In this document: piece by piece, positions 48,745 through 54,175 of the stretch | Numbering within the stretch: position 1 is the first letter of the stretch | How the letters are laid out: each line of letters starts with the position of its first letter | Assembly: GCF_008087625.1 (NCBI RefSeq) | Contig: NZ_CP042997.1 | Span: forward strand, 992,001 to 1,056,000 | Direction: 5' to 3' | Source: Aquisphaera giovannonii | GTDB lineage: Bacteria; Planctomycetota; Planctomycetia; Isosphaerales; Isosphaeraceae | Length of the DNA: 64,000 bases | Position numbers and translations under genes: made by a program | The notes under the pieces: model-generated | What the model was told of the DNA's origin: nothing | Databases searched by the model: none | The model's input: the letters and a program-made list of their open reading frames with translations, nothing else

Positions 48745-49446
48745 TCCTCGACGACGTGGAGGCCGGCGGGTCCGGTGCACCATCCTGCCGACGCAGTCCA
48801 GCCAGGAGGAGAGGAGGTCGTCACCAGGACCCTGGAGGAGAAGCCCAAGGCCGGTACCCACTGGAGCACCCGCGGCATGGCCCGGGCCGTCGGGCTCTCC
48901 CAGAGCGCCGTCGTCCGGATCTGGAACGCCTTCGGGCGGAAGCCCTACAGGGGCGAGACCTTCAAGCTCTCGACCGATCCCAATTTCGTCGAGAAGGTCC
49001 GCGACGTGGTCGGGCTCTACATGAGCCCGCCGGAGAACGCCATCGTCCTGTCGATCGACGAGAAGAGCCAGGTGCAGGCCCCGGACCGCACCCAGCCGCT
49101 GCTGCCGATGACGCCCGGCCGGGCCGAGCGCCGGACCCCCGACTATGTCCGCAACGGGACGACCTCGCCCCTCGCCACCCTGGACGTGGCCACCGGGCGG
49201 GTGATCGGCCGGTGCTACAGGCGGCACCGGCAGCGGGAGTTCCTGAAGTTCCTCAAGGAGATCGACGCCCAGGTCGTCAGGGGGCCGGGGGCCAGATCCA
49301 CATCATCTTGGACAACTATGGGACGCACAAGGCGCCCTCGGTGAGGCGGTGGTTCGAGCGGCATCCGGAGTACCATCTGCACTTCACGCCGACCAGCGGG
49401 TCCTGGCTGAATCAGGTGGAGCAAATCTTCGCCGAGATCACGGAGA
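48745..49446 (+). pseudogene. IS630-family transposase, frameshifted and truncated
   Basis: The main block (frame from about 48805) reads VVTRTLEEKPKAGTHWSTRG, then MARAVGLSQSAVVRIWNAFG, FKLSTDPNFVEKVRDVVGLY and VLSIDEKSQVQA with the first catalytic Asp. One G is missing near 49286, and the next frame continues QIHIILDNYGTHKAPSVRRW (second Asp) and FTPTSGSWLNQVEQIFAEIT (catalytic Glu region). The text ends at TEK and passes straight into repeat array 1, so the last 30-40 residues are gone. A further shift is likely near 48780. The element is inactive. Confidence 0.85.
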
Positions 49447-50590
49447 AGGGGGGACAAACGGGGCGGGGGACAAACGGGGGACAAACGGGGCCGCGACAAA
49501 CGGGGCCGCGACAAACGGGGCCGACAAACGGGGCGGCCGACAAACGGGGCCACCCAGCTTCGCGGGGGACAAACGGCGACAAAGGACAAACGGGGCCACC
49601 CAGCTTCGAAGGACAAACGGCAAAGGACAAACGGGGCCACCCAGCTTCGAAGGACAAACGGGGCCACCCAGCTTCGCGCGACAAACGGGGCCACCCAGCT
49701 TCGCGGGGCGGACAAACGGGGCCACCCAGCTTCGCGGGCGGACAAACGGGGCCACCCAGCTTCGCGGACAAACGGGGCCACCCAGCTTCGCGGGGGACAA
49801 ACGGGGCCACCCAGCTTCGGGGACAAACGGGGCCACCCAGCTTCGGGGACAAACGGGGCCACCCGGGACAAACGGGGCCACCCAGCTTCGCGGGACAAAC
49901 GGGGCCACCCAGCTTCGCGGGACAAACGGGGCCACCCAGCTTCGGACGGACAAACGGGGCCACCCAGCTTCGGGCGGACAAACGGGGCCACCCAGCTTCC
50001 GGACAAACGGGGCCACCCAGCTTCGGGGCGGACAAACGGGGCCACCCAGCTTCGGGGGACAAACGGGGCCACCCAGCTTCGGGGGGGGGGGACAAACGGG
50101 GCCACCCAGCTTCGGGGACAAATGGGGGGGGGACAAACGGGGGGACAAACGGGGCCACCCAGCTTCGGGGGGACAAACGGGGCCACCCAGCTTCGGGGAC
50201 AAACGGGGCCACCCAGCTTCGGGGGGGACAAACGGGGGACAAACGGGGCCACCCAGCTTCGCGGGGGGGACAAACGGGGCCACCCAGCTTCGGGGACAAA
50301 CGGGGGGGACAAACGGGGCCACCCAGCTTCTGTCCCGGCCGGGGGACAAACGGACAAACGGGGGACAAACGGGGCTGGGGACAAACGGGGCCACCCAGCT
50401 TCTGTCCCGGCCGGGGGACAAACGGACAGGGACAAACGGGGCCACCCAGCTTCTGTCCCGGCCGGGGGCGGTTCGAGCCGACCTCGGGCTTATCGGTCTA
50501 TGGCGCGGGACAAACGGGGCCACCCAGCTTCTGTCCCGGCCGGGGGCGGTTCGAGCCGACCTCGGGCTTATCGGTCTATGGCGGGACCGA
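49447..50590 (-). repeat. Repeat array 1: about 28 copies of a 22-30 bp unit flanking the RAYT gene
   Basis: On the plus strand the unit reads GACAAACGGGGCCACCCAG then CTTCG, followed by a G-rich spacer of variable length (0-12 G, sometimes with C or A). I counted about 28 full copies, plus incomplete GGACAAACGG units without the second half. Read on the minus strand, the core is AGCTGGGTGGCCCC, the same core as array 2 on the plus strand. The last copies gain a TCTGTCCCGGCCGGGGG extension, and two of them form a 78-bp tandem duplicate (50435-50590). All frames are open because the unit lacks stop codons; I do not regard it as coding. Confidence 0.92.
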
Positions 50591-50738
50591 GCTTCATACC
50601 ACGGGCCGCTCGCGCGGGATGAGGATCTTGCGGAAGCGGACGAGCAGGGGACGCCCACGTCTCGCCGGGCGTGCGGCGGCGGGCGCGGGCCGGCATGGCG
50701 CGGGTGCGGCGTGGGGACGCGACCGGCCCGGGGGCCGG

Positions 50739-51887
50739 CTAGGCGGGCAGGGGGAAGGCGACCCGACAGGCGGCGATGCCGTGCAGCCAGCGGCGGCCGA
50801 CGCGGGCCGCCTCGGCGCGGAGCGATTCGGCGGTGCCGACGGCGCGGCGGGGGCGGCCGAAGAGGCCGCGGGCCGCGGCCGGCCACGACTCCGATCGCAG
50901 CCCCAGCCGATCCAGGACCGGAGGCGACGTAGCCGGGATCGTGCCGCCGCCGGGCCGCGACTGCCGGCCGGCCCAGTCCAGCAGCTCCAGGTACTGCGCG
51001 GCGGTCATCGGCAGCAGCCCGCGGTCGCTCGCCCGGGGCGGCCGGGGCCGCGAGGCCGGGGCCGGCGCCGGCGACCCCGCCGGGGGCCGGGGCTTGGCCG
51101 GCTCGCGCTCGATCAGCTCGATCGGGCTCAGCCAGGCATCCCGGGGGGCGGGCGGAGTCGCATCCGCGGCGGCCCGCGCGGCGAGGAGGGCCTCGGCCCG
51201 CTGGCAGGCCGAGGTCCGGCCGTCGCGGTCGGGCGCCTCGGCGATGCCGGCACGCACGGGGTTGAGGTCGACGTACGCCATGCAGGCCAGCAGCGCCGCC
51301 TCGTCCAGCAGGTGCGTGCAGCGGAAGCGGCCCTGCCAGAACCGCCCGGTGCAGCCGTCCTCGCGGTTGGCCCGCCGGGCGATCGGCTCGGCCAGGGCGC
51401 GCATGAACCACGACAGGTCCGCCAGCCGCCGCCGCAACTCCGCCAGGCGGGCCGGGTCGGCCGGGGTCGCGGCCGTCGCCGGCGTGGGCACATCGGCCGG
51501 GTCGGGGGCCTCGGCCGAGGATGCCGACGCGGGGCCGGAGGCCCCGGCCCGCCTCCCGGCCCCGGGCCCCGCCGGCGGCGGGCCGGGGAAGATGGCGGCC
51601 CAGCGGCTGGCGACCTCCGCGTCGTCCCAGGCGGCGGCCAGGTCGGGCCGGATGCGGAGCACGACGTGCAGGTGGTTGTCCATCACCGCGAAGCCGGCGA
51701 CCTCGACGGCGAAGGCGCCGGCCAGCTCCTCGAGCCGGCCCCGGATCCAATCGCGGCGGTGGCCGAAGTCGAGCCCCGTGGCCGCGTCCGCGCCGCAGAG
51801 GGCGGCGAGGCGGACCACCCGCTGCACGCAGTGATAGGCCCCGACCTCGTCGGCGAGGACGACGTCGGACCTCCTCGATCGCGCCAT
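50739..51887 (-). CDS. REP-associated tyrosine transposase (RAYT), Y1/HUH family
   Basis: A 382-residue protein of the IS200-like Y1 transposase superfamily. The metal-binding HUH motif is in AVMDNHLHVVLRI. Downstream the RAYT/planctomycete signature follows: RFWQGRFRCTHLLDEAALLA then YVDLNPVRAGIAE. The N-terminus ADEVGAYHCVQRVVRL is the first strand pair of the family, and a Tyr-containing helix (AAQYLELLDWAG) near residue 290 could hold the nucleophile. RAYTs cut single-stranded REP hairpins and mobilise them. Here the gene lies between two inverted arrays that share one core, the expected geometry of a RAYT with its repeats. The C-terminal 150 residues are longer than in compact RAYTs. Confidence 0.88.
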   Translation of the reverse strand: MARSRRSDVVLADEVGAYHCVQRVVRLAALCGADAATGLDFGHRRDWIRGRLEELAGAFAVEVAGFAVMDNHLHVVLRIRPDLAAAWDDAEVASRWAAIFPGPPPAGPGAGRRAGASGPASASSAEAPDPADVPTPATAATPADPARLAELRRRLADLSWFMRALAEPIARRANREDGCTGRFWQGRFRCTHLLDEAALLACMAYVDLNPVRAGIAEAPDRDGRTSACQRAEALLAARAAADATPPAPRDAWLSPIELIEREPAKPRPPAGSPAPAPASRPRPPRASDRGLLPMTAAQYLELLDWAGRQSRPGGGTIPATSPPVLDRLGLRSESWPAAARGLFGRPRRAVGTAESLRAEAARVGRRWLHGIAACRVAFPLPA

Positions 51888-51983
51888 GCCAAGCCCCCCC
51901 CGGCTGGTCTCCGGCTCATCCCCGCGAGCCGTCCGTCCGATGGAACCCTAGCTCGCCGCCTATCCGGGTGCCGGCGATGGCTC

Positions 51984-52980
51984 GGGAAAGCTGGGTGGCC
52001 CCTTTGCGCTCGGGAAAGCTGGGTGGCCCCTTTGCGCTTCTTTGCCCTTCCTTCTTCCCTTCCTAAAGCTGGGTGGCCCCTTTGCCCTTCCTAAAGCTGG
52101 GTGGCCCCTTTGCCCTTCCTTCTTCCCTTCCTAAAGCTGGGTGGCCCCTTTGCCCTCTAAAGCTGGGTGGCCCCTTTGCCCCCTTCTTCCCTAAAGCTGG
52201 GTGGCCCCTTTGCCCTTCCTAAAGCTGGGTGGCCCCTTTGCCCTTCCCTAAAGCTGGGTGGCCCCTTTGCCCTTCCTAAAGCTGGGTGGCCCCTTTGCCC
52301 TTCCTTCTTCCCTTCCTAAAGCTGGGTGGCCCCTTTGCCCTCTAAAGCTGGGTGGCCCCTTTGCCCCCTTCTTCCCTAAAGCTGGGTGGCCCCTTTGCCC
52401 TTCCTAAAGCTGGGTGGCCCCTTTGCCCTTCCTAAAGCTGGGTGGCCCCTTTGCCCTTCCTAAAGCTGGGTGGCCCCTTTGCCCTTCTTCCTCTAAAGCT
52501 GGGTGGCCCCTTTGCCCGGGTGGCCCCTTTGCCCTTCCTTCCTAAAGCTGGGTGGCCCCTTTGCCCCCCCTAAAGCTGGGTGGCCCCTTTGCCCCCTAGA
52601 GCTGGGTGGCCCCTTTGCCCGCTCCCCCCTTCTTCCCTAAAGCTGGGTGGCCCCTTTGCCCTTCCTAAAGCTGGGTGGCCCCTTTGCCCTTCCCTAAAGC
52701 TGGGTGGCCCCTTTGCCCTTCCTAAAGCTGGGTGGCCCCTTTGCCCTTCTTCCTCTAAAGCTGGGTGGCCCCTTTGCCCGGGTGGCCCCTTTGCCCTTCC
52801 TTCCTAAAGCTGGGTGGCCCCTTTGCCCCCCCTAAAGCTGGGTGGCCCCTTTGCCCCTAAAGCTGGGTGGCCCCTTTGCCCCCTAGAGCTGGGTGGCCCC
52901 TTTGCCCGCTCTAGAGCTGGGTGGCCCCTTTGCCCGCTGCCCCTTTGCCCGGCCCCTTTGCCCGGGTGGCCCCTTTGCCC
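51984..52980 (+). repeat. Repeat array 2: about 30 copies of AGCTGGGTGGCCCC units
   Basis: The unit is AAAGCTGGGTGGCCCCTTTG followed by CCC and a pyrimidine spacer (TTCCT, TCT, TTCCTTCTTCCCTTCCT and others); unit length is 21-40 bp. The first two copies carry GCGC instead of GCCC. Blocks of several units are themselves duplicated: 52131-52250 recurs at 52315-52430, and 52484-52575 recurs at 52746-52835, showing growth by segmental duplication. The core is inverted relative to array 1 across the RAYT gene. Confidence 0.92.
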
Positions 52981-52997
52981 TTCCTTTGCCCTTCCTA

Positions 52998-53345
52998 GGT
53001 GGCCCCTTTCTTCCCTCTGGGTGGCCCCTTTCTTCCCCTGGGTGGCCCCTTTCTTCCCCCCTGGGTGGCCCCTTTCTTCCCCCCCTGGGTGGCCCCTTTC
53101 TTCCCCCTTTCTTCCCCCCTGGGTGGCCCCTTTCTTCCCCCTGGGTGGCCCCTTTCTTCCCCTGGGTGGCCCCTTTCTTCCCCCTTTCTTCCCCCCTGGG
53201 TGGCCCCTTTCTTCCCCCCTGGGTGGCCCCTTTCTTCCCCCTGGGTGGCCCCTTTCTTCCCCTGGGTGGCCCCTTTCTTCCCCCTCCTTTCTTCCCCTGG
53301 GTGGCCCCTTTCTTCCCCCTTTCTGGGTGGCCCCTTTCTTCCCCC
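52998..53345 (+). repeat. Sub-array 3: about 14 copies of a CTGGGTGGCCCCTTTCTTCC unit
   Basis: Immediately after array 2 the unit changes to a 20-22 bp form. It keeps GGGTGGCCCCTTT but has lost AAAG before it and has TCTTCCCC after it. The copies are almost perfectly regular, apart from four insertions of a CTTTCTTCCCC piece. It ends at 53345 next to the toxin-antitoxin operon. Confidence 0.9.
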
Positions 53346-53405
53346 TTTCTCGTGCCGTCAGACGAGCCACGTTTCCGATCGGGAGCCTTCGCCCGCTTGG
53401 TGACC

Positions 53406-53765
53406 TCAGGCCTGGGGCTCGGTGCCCGCCTGGATGCGACTCGTCCAGATCTCGGGGAAGGCCATGATGTCGTCCAGGTAGCGGGCGGCGATGGCGGGGA
53501 CCGGGCGAAGTCCCTGCTCCCAGGAGCGAATCGTTTTCACGCTCACGCCGAGAAACCGTGCAAGCAGCGGCTGGCTGGCACCGAGCTTTTTCCGGACGCT
53601 CTTGACGTCCGCGGGCGTATACGCCCGGGGAGAGAGGTTGAGCTTGACCGTCCGGACCGTGAATCGCTTGTCCAGCGGCTCCCCCGCCTCCAAGGCCTCG
53701 GCAAGCTCGGTCAGCCCGGCGATGAGTTGATCCCCGAAGTTCGATCCCTCGGCTCGCTTCTTCAC
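53406..53765 (-). CDS. HigA-like helix-turn-helix antitoxin
   Basis: A 119-residue protein. The helix-turn-helix is VRKKLGASQPLLARFLG then VKTIRSWEQG, typical of the HigA/NadS group. The preceding segment (LSPRAYTPADVKSVRK) is also family-like. Its ATG overlaps the stop of the toxin gene by 4 bp (ATGA), so the two are translationally coupled with the toxin first, as in higBA. It should neutralise the toxin and repress the promoter at 54217-54245. A fragment of a related antitoxin lies at 47203-47275. Confidence 0.88.
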   Translation of the reverse strand: MKKRAEGSNFGDQLIAGLTELAEALEAGEPLDKRFTVRTVKLNLSPRAYTPADVKSVRKKLGASQPLLARFLGVSVKTIRSWEQGLRPVPAIAARYLDDIMAFPEIWTSRIQAGTEPQA

Positions 53766-54175
53766 TTCCGATCCTCCATCACCTCGAGGCTAGATTTGAT
53801 CCGGATGACCAGCCCTGCGAGTGCGTTCCGCTGAGCTTTCGTCAAGTTCGCCTTCTCGGTCTTGGATAGCACTCCGAGGAGGAAGACGAGCTGGTGCTCG
53901 ATCGCGTAGAGGTAGAAGACGCGGTATGCACCGCTCTTGCCACGGCCCGATCCCGGGGGATTGAACCGTATCTTCCTGATCCCGTTCGTCCCGGCCACGA
54001 CGAGGCCCGCCGAAGGCTGTGCGAGGATGGACAACTGCAGAACATACCTGTCGGCGTCCGTAAGGCCCAACTGCTCCCACTGACTCGTGAACGCCCCTAT
54101 CTCGATGAACGTCGCGAGTGGCCCCGGAGTCAGTCGATACGAACGGATGACCTTCAGATGATCGTCCGAGAACAT
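53762..54175 (-). CDS. RelE/HigB-like toxin
   Basis: A 137-residue protein. The C-terminal 90 residues follow the RelE/ParE fold (LAQPSAGLVVAGTNGIRKIR, then GKSGAYRVFYLYAIEHQLVF, LLGVLSKTEKANL). The conserved basic residues Arg-Lys-Ile-Arg and the G(K)xGA(Y)R strand form the mRNA-cutting face in HigB relatives. It is the first gene of the operon, directly followed by its antitoxin with a 4-bp overlap. The pair lies between repeat sub-array 3 and a two-component system. Confidence 0.87.
   Translation of the reverse strand: MFSDDHLKVIRSYRLTPGPLATFIEIGAFTSQWEQLGLTDADRYVLQLSILAQPSAGLVVAGTNGIRKIRFNPPGSGRGKSGAYRVFYLYAIEHQLVFLLGVLSKTEKANLTKAQRNALAGLVIRIKSSLEVMEDRK

Follow-up and report, generated by a model that had tools for sequence, protein, structure and literature searches.

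Outward-pointing arrays of a terminal repeat with ragged starts and a fixed distal end flank a RAYT-type transposase gene in Aquisphaera giovannonii and recur in relatives

The stretch of DNA analysed here, referred to as the window, comprises 64,000 nucleotides of the planctomycete Aquisphaera giovannonii (NCBI RefSeq assembly GCF_008087625.1, contig NZ_CP042997.1, positions 992,001 to 1,056,000 of the forward strand). Between positions 49,447 and 53,350 it holds a gene for a RAYT, a Y1 HUH transposase associated with repetitive extragenic palindromes (REPs) or terminal inverted repeats (TIRs), enclosed on both sides by long arrays of tandem repeats. The locus is made up of the following features:

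50739..51887, minus strand: RAYT of 382 amino acids, recognized from an open 382-codon frame, its motif and its predicted fold.
49447..50583, minus strand: array 1, on the 3′ side of the RAYT, about 44 units of the form (ragged 5′ start)-AGCTGGGTGGCCCC-GTTTGTC.
50507..50583, minus strand: one copy, 78 bp long, of the RAYT-proximal TIR together with sequence from inside the element (CCGGGACAGAAGCTGGGTGGCCCCGTTTGTCCC), within a tandem duplication at 50429-50583; its homology to the second RAYT locus was read by eye.
51966..52038, plus strand: proximal 5′-side TIR, two 28-bp copies (CTCGGGAAAGCTGGGTGGCCCCTTTGCG), with homology to the second RAYT locus stopping at the core CCCC.
51980..52990, plus strand: array 2, before the RAYT 5′ end, core on the plus strand, about 37 units ending in TTTGCC(C) or TTTGCG.
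52983..53350, plus strand: sub-array 3, core shortened to CTGGGTGGCCCC, tail TTTCTTCC, about 17-19 units.

The predicted protein carries an HUH motif (N71-H72-L-H74) and Tyr205, with H72, H74 and Y205 invariant in an alignment of 11 sequences (the window RAYT and ten relatives), and contains a low-complexity insert at residues ~103-145. Its predicted structure, a modest model with a mean pLDDT of 59.5, has as its top fold match in the PDB entry 4er8, the Escherichia coli TnpA-REP (RAYT) with bound REP hairpin, followed by IS200/IS605 transposases (probability 1.00). The protein has no Pfam match, PF01797 included, scores 43.9 bits against the NF047646 family of REP-associated tyrosine transposases, under the cut-off of 80, and yielded no relevant match in a PDB sequence search using the RAYT alignment. 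Six relatives of the same RAYT clade from other phyla or families likewise fall under both curated cut-offs (NF047646 and PF01797), and the clade is therefore probably under-annotated. The identification of the gene as a Y1 transposase of the RAYT type, made in the preliminary description, is thus backed by the 4er8 fold match, the HUH motif with its tyrosine and the sub-cut-off NF047646 match, and by its modelled fold the gene product is of this type; cleavage of single strands beside the repeat is the activity predicted for it by analogy.

The minus strand has 28 exact copies of AGCTGGGTGGCCCC between 49546 and 50529 and the plus strand 30 between 51989 and 52928, where shuffled sequence would give 0.12 with one mismatch allowed; about 98 units surround the RAYT in total when units are counted by their constant tail, truncated ones included. 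Array 1 is composed of 29 units with the core GGGTGGCCCC and 15 units that are 5′-truncated, array 2 of 35 units with the tail TTTGCC and two proximal units with the tail TTTGCG, and sub-array 3 of 17 units by this count. Tandem Repeats Finder also reports arrays on both sides of the RAYT, with a period of ~27-28 and many irregularities. Orientation is uniform within each array, and the two arrays point outward from the gene. The coordinates, the counts (about 28 copies in array 1 and about 44 in array 2 plus sub-array 3) and the inverted placement of the cores on either side, all described previously from the sequence, hold. The degeneracy of the units is of one specific kind only: their starts are ragged and their ends are fixed. 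Across nine arrays, the core is missing from 68 units that retain the tail, and two units have the core without the listed tail (p = 4e-18); both lie at the RAYT-proximal end of array 2, with the tail TTTGCG, and no clear 3′-truncated unit was found. Within window 52983-53365, sub-array 3 and the native right flank have CTTTCT in common, and the tail of array 2 differs.

Beyond these arrays the exact core AGCTGGGTGGCCCC has only 3 copies in the 10.5-Mb genome. The looser AAGNTGGGTGGCCCC has 80 exact copies in seven clusters, a count that leaves aside diverged copies, and none in a reversed control; the census of arrays in the genome is partial. One of these clusters, at C1:5.04 Mb, adjoins a second RAYT 4 Mb away, which is 85% and 73% identical to the window RAYT over two segments and has the same layout, with a 3′-side array of tail GAATGCCGC and a 5′-side array of tail TTCCGG. 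Read by eye, the two loci are homologous as far as the core CCCC and different beyond it. Five further clusters lie elsewhere in the genome; those at C1:247 kb, 452 kb, 5.71 Mb and 5.93 Mb either are small or carry distinct tails.

A scan retaining one genome per species gave 80 relatives (L138-L217) from named genomes; most belong to the Planctomycetes or Gammaproteobacteria, and a small number to the Verrucomicrobia or other groups. These relatives are not phylogenetically independent, and the P values given here overstate the number of events; the loci nevertheless span phyla and their tails are unrelated in sequence. The exact window core AGCTGGGTGGCCCC is absent, but for one match, from 30 relatives, which carry their own versions of the core, and an outward motif TGGNTGKC is common to the units of relatives in the clade, usually with only one or two extra copies. 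Direct repeats of core plus tail occur in 51 of 146 outward flanks across the 80 loci, compared with none of 146 in inward orientation, 2 of 146 when reversed and 6 of 894 far segments. Tandem arrays also concentrate near the gene: 87 lie in the 130 kb up to 900 bp from the RAYT, and 48 in the 481 kb farther out in these loci. The preliminary description had tied the arrays to the RAYT, a link that would have weakened had the repeat been confined to this site and also been found in relatives without a RAYT; searching the genome and the relatives for the core and for RAYT homologues instead returned a second RAYT and many relatives that share the layout.

The distance from the start of the core to the distal end of the repeated segment has a median of 18 nt (interquartile range 16-19) over the 80 loci, and the proximal extension ranges from 0 to 100. 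Between tandem copies, identity stays at 0.65-0.9 up to +17 and drops to 0.40 at +18, with a background of 0.30. The two TIRs of one element are alike from about −7 to +12, and their identity reaches background near +13. That TIR-to-TIR identity ends near +13 and copy identity at +18 means that each unit includes about 5 nt of locus-specific DNA (+13 to +17). The view of the tail as pure target-site DNA was partly rejected, as the two TIRs remain similar to about +12. The arrays consist of the terminal repeat of the element itself and ~5 nt of adjoining DNA, and are not the free-standing origin-like structure initially entertained.

A search for exact tandem duplications that makes no use of the core led to the same boundary. 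Such duplications were found at 41 of 109 TIR ends and in 24 of 2361 far segments (Fisher 1e-42). Of the 41, 31 have their end between +15 and +21, a range that would receive 6% under a uniform spread. Some are only 9-14 nt long and lack the core. At the junctions, 46 of 55 duplications overlap by 0 or 1 nt. Each duplication ends ~18 nt past the motif whatever the flanking sequence, while its start varies, a rule reported here for the first time. The notion that all RAYTs behave alike is unsupported, since loci of NF047646-type RAYTs in the phylum show no near-gene enrichment of exact tandem duplications.

Each terminal repeat forms a short, imperfect palindrome whose arms lie at roughly −7 to −2 and +8 to +13 around the loop T-GGNTGKC. 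Its arms covary between loci (z 2.7-3.6, several pairs), which is better evidence for the structure than the folding of single units as DNA, where full-length units form a hairpin with unremarkable z-scores. No known RNA family was found in the window. Some core copies at least 2 kb from a RAYT have similar duplications. At the same distance from a RAYT, in other bacteria, L163 (4600-4960) and L154 (8360-8900) hold miniature arrays of the window type.

The window locus belongs to the TIRtron kind of RAYT transposon, with one Y1 HUH gene and outward-pointing TIRs. The portions of the literature consulted describe the TIRtron, or TIRYT, as a Y1 gene flanked by TIRs in place of GTAG REPs, note that TIRs can form dimers and clusters, and report Planctomycetes (R. 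baltica) as rich in TIRYT genes (Di Nocera et al. 2013, PMC3733652). Here too the transposase gene is flanked by TIRs instead of GTAG REPs and TIR clusters are present; a fixed-end rule and arrays of tens of units at the transposase are, in the parts of that work available, not described for TIRtrons (PMC3733652). Nor does the window motif strictly follow GGGGWSAS: it reads GGGGCCAC here and GGACACCC in most relatives, and the source attributes GGGGWSAS to only some TIRs, so that it is not obligatory. With the E. coli REPtron (4er8; PMC8266576) the element shares the fold, the HUH motif with its tyrosine and inverted, hairpin-capable flanking repeats, the last a hallmark of RAYT/TnpA-REP systems, and hairpin-adjacent cleavage is a known activity of the E. 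coli type. The window element differs in having a longer protein, no GTAG (base frequencies over the relatives reveal no conserved tetranucleotide upstream of the core), few dispersed copies (80 exact AAGNTGGGTGGCCCC in 7 clusters, where GTAG REPs exceed 100 dispersed copies per genome) and one head-to-tail orientation per array instead of the alternating REPs of a bacterial interspersed mosaic element (BIME).

For Pseudomonas fluorescens SBW25, the consulted parts of one study (Bertels and Rainey 2011, PMC3116915) report long head-to-tail REP arrays with as many as 12 copies. They resemble the window arrays in their head-to-tail arrangement and differ in that their units are evenly spaced and of fixed length; ragged starts and a central transposase are not reported in those parts (PMC3116915). 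The window arrays are not GTAG REPs, and the amplification of the element's own repeat is local. IS200/IS605 elements share with the window element a Y1 HUH transposase, subterminal hairpins and cleavage at a set distance outside the hairpin. Their ends are not known to be mirror-symmetric inverted repeats or to carry tandem arrays. The statement that no described system has this size proved too strong, as tandem REP/TIR clusters with flanking DNA are on record in the portions seen of two papers (PMC3733652, PMC3116915); in the literature covered, subscription papers aside and some sources in part, there is no description of a fixed distal end, of one-sided truncation or of about a hundred units around a single RAYT.

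The footprint at these loci consists of a fixed distal end, a variable proximal end, mostly blunt junctions and outward polarity; it is associated with the RAYT clade and occurs independently at many loci. A sequence-independent fixed end combined with a variable start and mostly blunt junctions points to cutting at a measured distance and not to slippage between matching bases. On balance we favour, with somewhat better than even confidence, a mechanism in which the DNA is nicked, probably by the RAYT, at a set distance past the terminal hairpin, and re-copying or strand transfer makes the arrays grow in place. A single strand would be nicked 4-5 nt past the hairpin (~18 nt from GGNTG), most probably by the RAYT; the free end would be joined to, or re-copied from, a variable point farther inside the element; and each event would place another unit, from variable start to fixed end, beside the previous one. 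This would have happened once or twice in most relatives and about a hundred times across the two ends of the window element. The RAYT is favoured as the enzyme nicking at ~+18 because characterized RAYTs cut single strands 5′ and 3′ of a hairpin and transfer strands, as TnpA-REP does with single-stranded DNA around the REP (PMC8266576). The role of the RAYT as nicking enzyme, the copying in place, the strand and the order of events are what we infer from this footprint. The suggestion in the preliminary description that a RAYT amplifies its own substrate locally accordingly splits in two: local amplification is borne out by the second RAYT and the many relatives with the same layout, and the RAYT as maker of the copies is the presumed part.

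Several observations weigh against this mechanism. At least 59 of the 109 ends lack a repeat of any one tested tail 7-mer. RAYT-proximal units are the longest in array 2 and at the second RAYT locus (Spearman −0.53 and −0.60), but array 1 has no significant length order (rho −0.17). Several clusters of this genome (L062, L064, L065) have no RAYT of the clade within ~10 kb, although a RAYT could act on such clusters in trans. Examined by eye, the blunt duplications share no conserved cut dinucleotide, whereas characterized TnpA-REP cuts C|T or C|A; this counts against the textbook C|T specificity, and a host nuclease or a replication error provoked by the hairpin may instead be at work; either could also yield a fixed end. 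In such an account, which covers a replication error set off by the hairpin or a host structure-specific nuclease acting on the nascent strand or the template, the terminal palindrome would fold during replication, the strand would be released or cut just past the hairpin and re-primed upstream, and the RAYT would supply the palindrome only. The position of the duplication end, 4-5 nt beyond the inferred hairpin base, fits it, as do the missing sequence specificity at the cut, the clusters of the same genome without a nearby RAYT and two other repeat types here (L132, L002c) that form fixed-end ragged arrays. Slippage should, however, leave microhomology, and only 4 of the 55 duplications overlap by at least 3 nt; RAYTs of the NF047646 lineages in the phylum also lack the enrichment of exact tandem duplications near the gene. 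We consider this account unlikely, though deserving of serious attention.

Ordinary tandem-repeat drift would require no special chemistry: two or more tandem terminal sites would be selected for transposase binding, and the large arrays would be expansions by unequal recombination. The two-copy layout is indeed widespread in the RAYT clade and longer-period block duplications (100-446 bp) occur inside the window arrays, but drift does not account for the abrupt limit at +18, which lies outside the shared TIR, for truncation on one side only (68 to 2) or for the mostly blunt exact duplications of 9-14 nt without the core, and we deem it improbable. That the arrays are an assembly or sequencing artefact might be suspected from a highly repetitive, GC-rich region; the assembly of the chromosome as one 10.37-Mb contig and the recurrence of the layout at a second locus and in many independent assemblies, including two-copy cases shorter than a read, make this very hard to credit. 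A preference of the RAYT for insertion into pre-existing tandem arrays would account for the association alone, yet the array unit carries the terminal core of the element itself along with sequence from its interior, and it is chiefly the tail that distinguishes the arrays at one RAYT locus from those at the other, so this explanation too is given very little weight.

A wider form of the nicking mechanism holds that a multi-phylum RAYT clade amplifies its own terminal repeat in place from one end, with a cut made ~18 nt past the conserved loop by distance and not by sequence and the cut end joined to a variable upstream point, and that REP/TIR clusters in these bacteria are a direct trace of transposase chemistry and not of slippage; we advance it tentatively, with slightly less than even confidence. 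The multiplication of REP-type repeats and the role of RAYTs in living cells are described as still poorly understood (PMC8266576). The fixed +18 end with a variable start leaves a mark recognizable across many genomes and points to an exact phosphodiester bond, and the duplications may show how RAYT genes multiply their own end repeats. If the cut is that of the RAYT, RAYT activity is visible in vivo and REP clusters are records of it; if not, the footprint reflects a duplication pathway tied to palindromes, in which the break point is fixed.

Further arrays were noted beside or away from Y1 genes. In this genome, at L131/L132 (C1:8353160-8355076), two divergent Y1 transposases of another lineage enclose a ragged fixed-end array with the tail TTTCTCTGT, and the 5′ end of the gene is also duplicated. 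At C1:452 kb (L002, 1230-2530) three different fixed-end arrays adjoin, one with the core AAATAGATCTGACACC and the tail GACGGCTTT, with no RAYT of the clade within ~10 kb. Two further Y1 genes of this genome, L136 and L137 (C1:5139599 and 4903236), have repeats on both sides, which comprise a palindromic CCGGACGGAGCCGGCTCCCACGGGG array and a regular 38-bp CGTAGGGTGGGTC...CCCACC array of the GTAG type. A broken RAYT of the clade lies beside 33 near-perfect copies of TCATCCCGTG (L121, 7129-7537), and a 30-bp unit repeated 21 times (CAGGCCCCGGCCAAGATCGCCCCGGCCCCG; L070, 4095-4728) is probably coding.

The immediate neighbours of the element in the window are the following:

48775..49446, plus strand: frameshifted remnant of an IS630-family transposase (NF033545, 102 bits), cut off at the start of array 1.
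53406..54175, minus strand: gene pair for a helix-turn-helix (HTH) protein (NadS-type, antitoxin-like) and a RelE-like toxin, beyond sub-array 3 and outside the element.

The NadS-like HTH and RelE-like genes are likely a toxin-antitoxin pair. The IS630 remnant is ~69% identical, over 94% of its length, to IS630 elements on Streptomyces plasmids.

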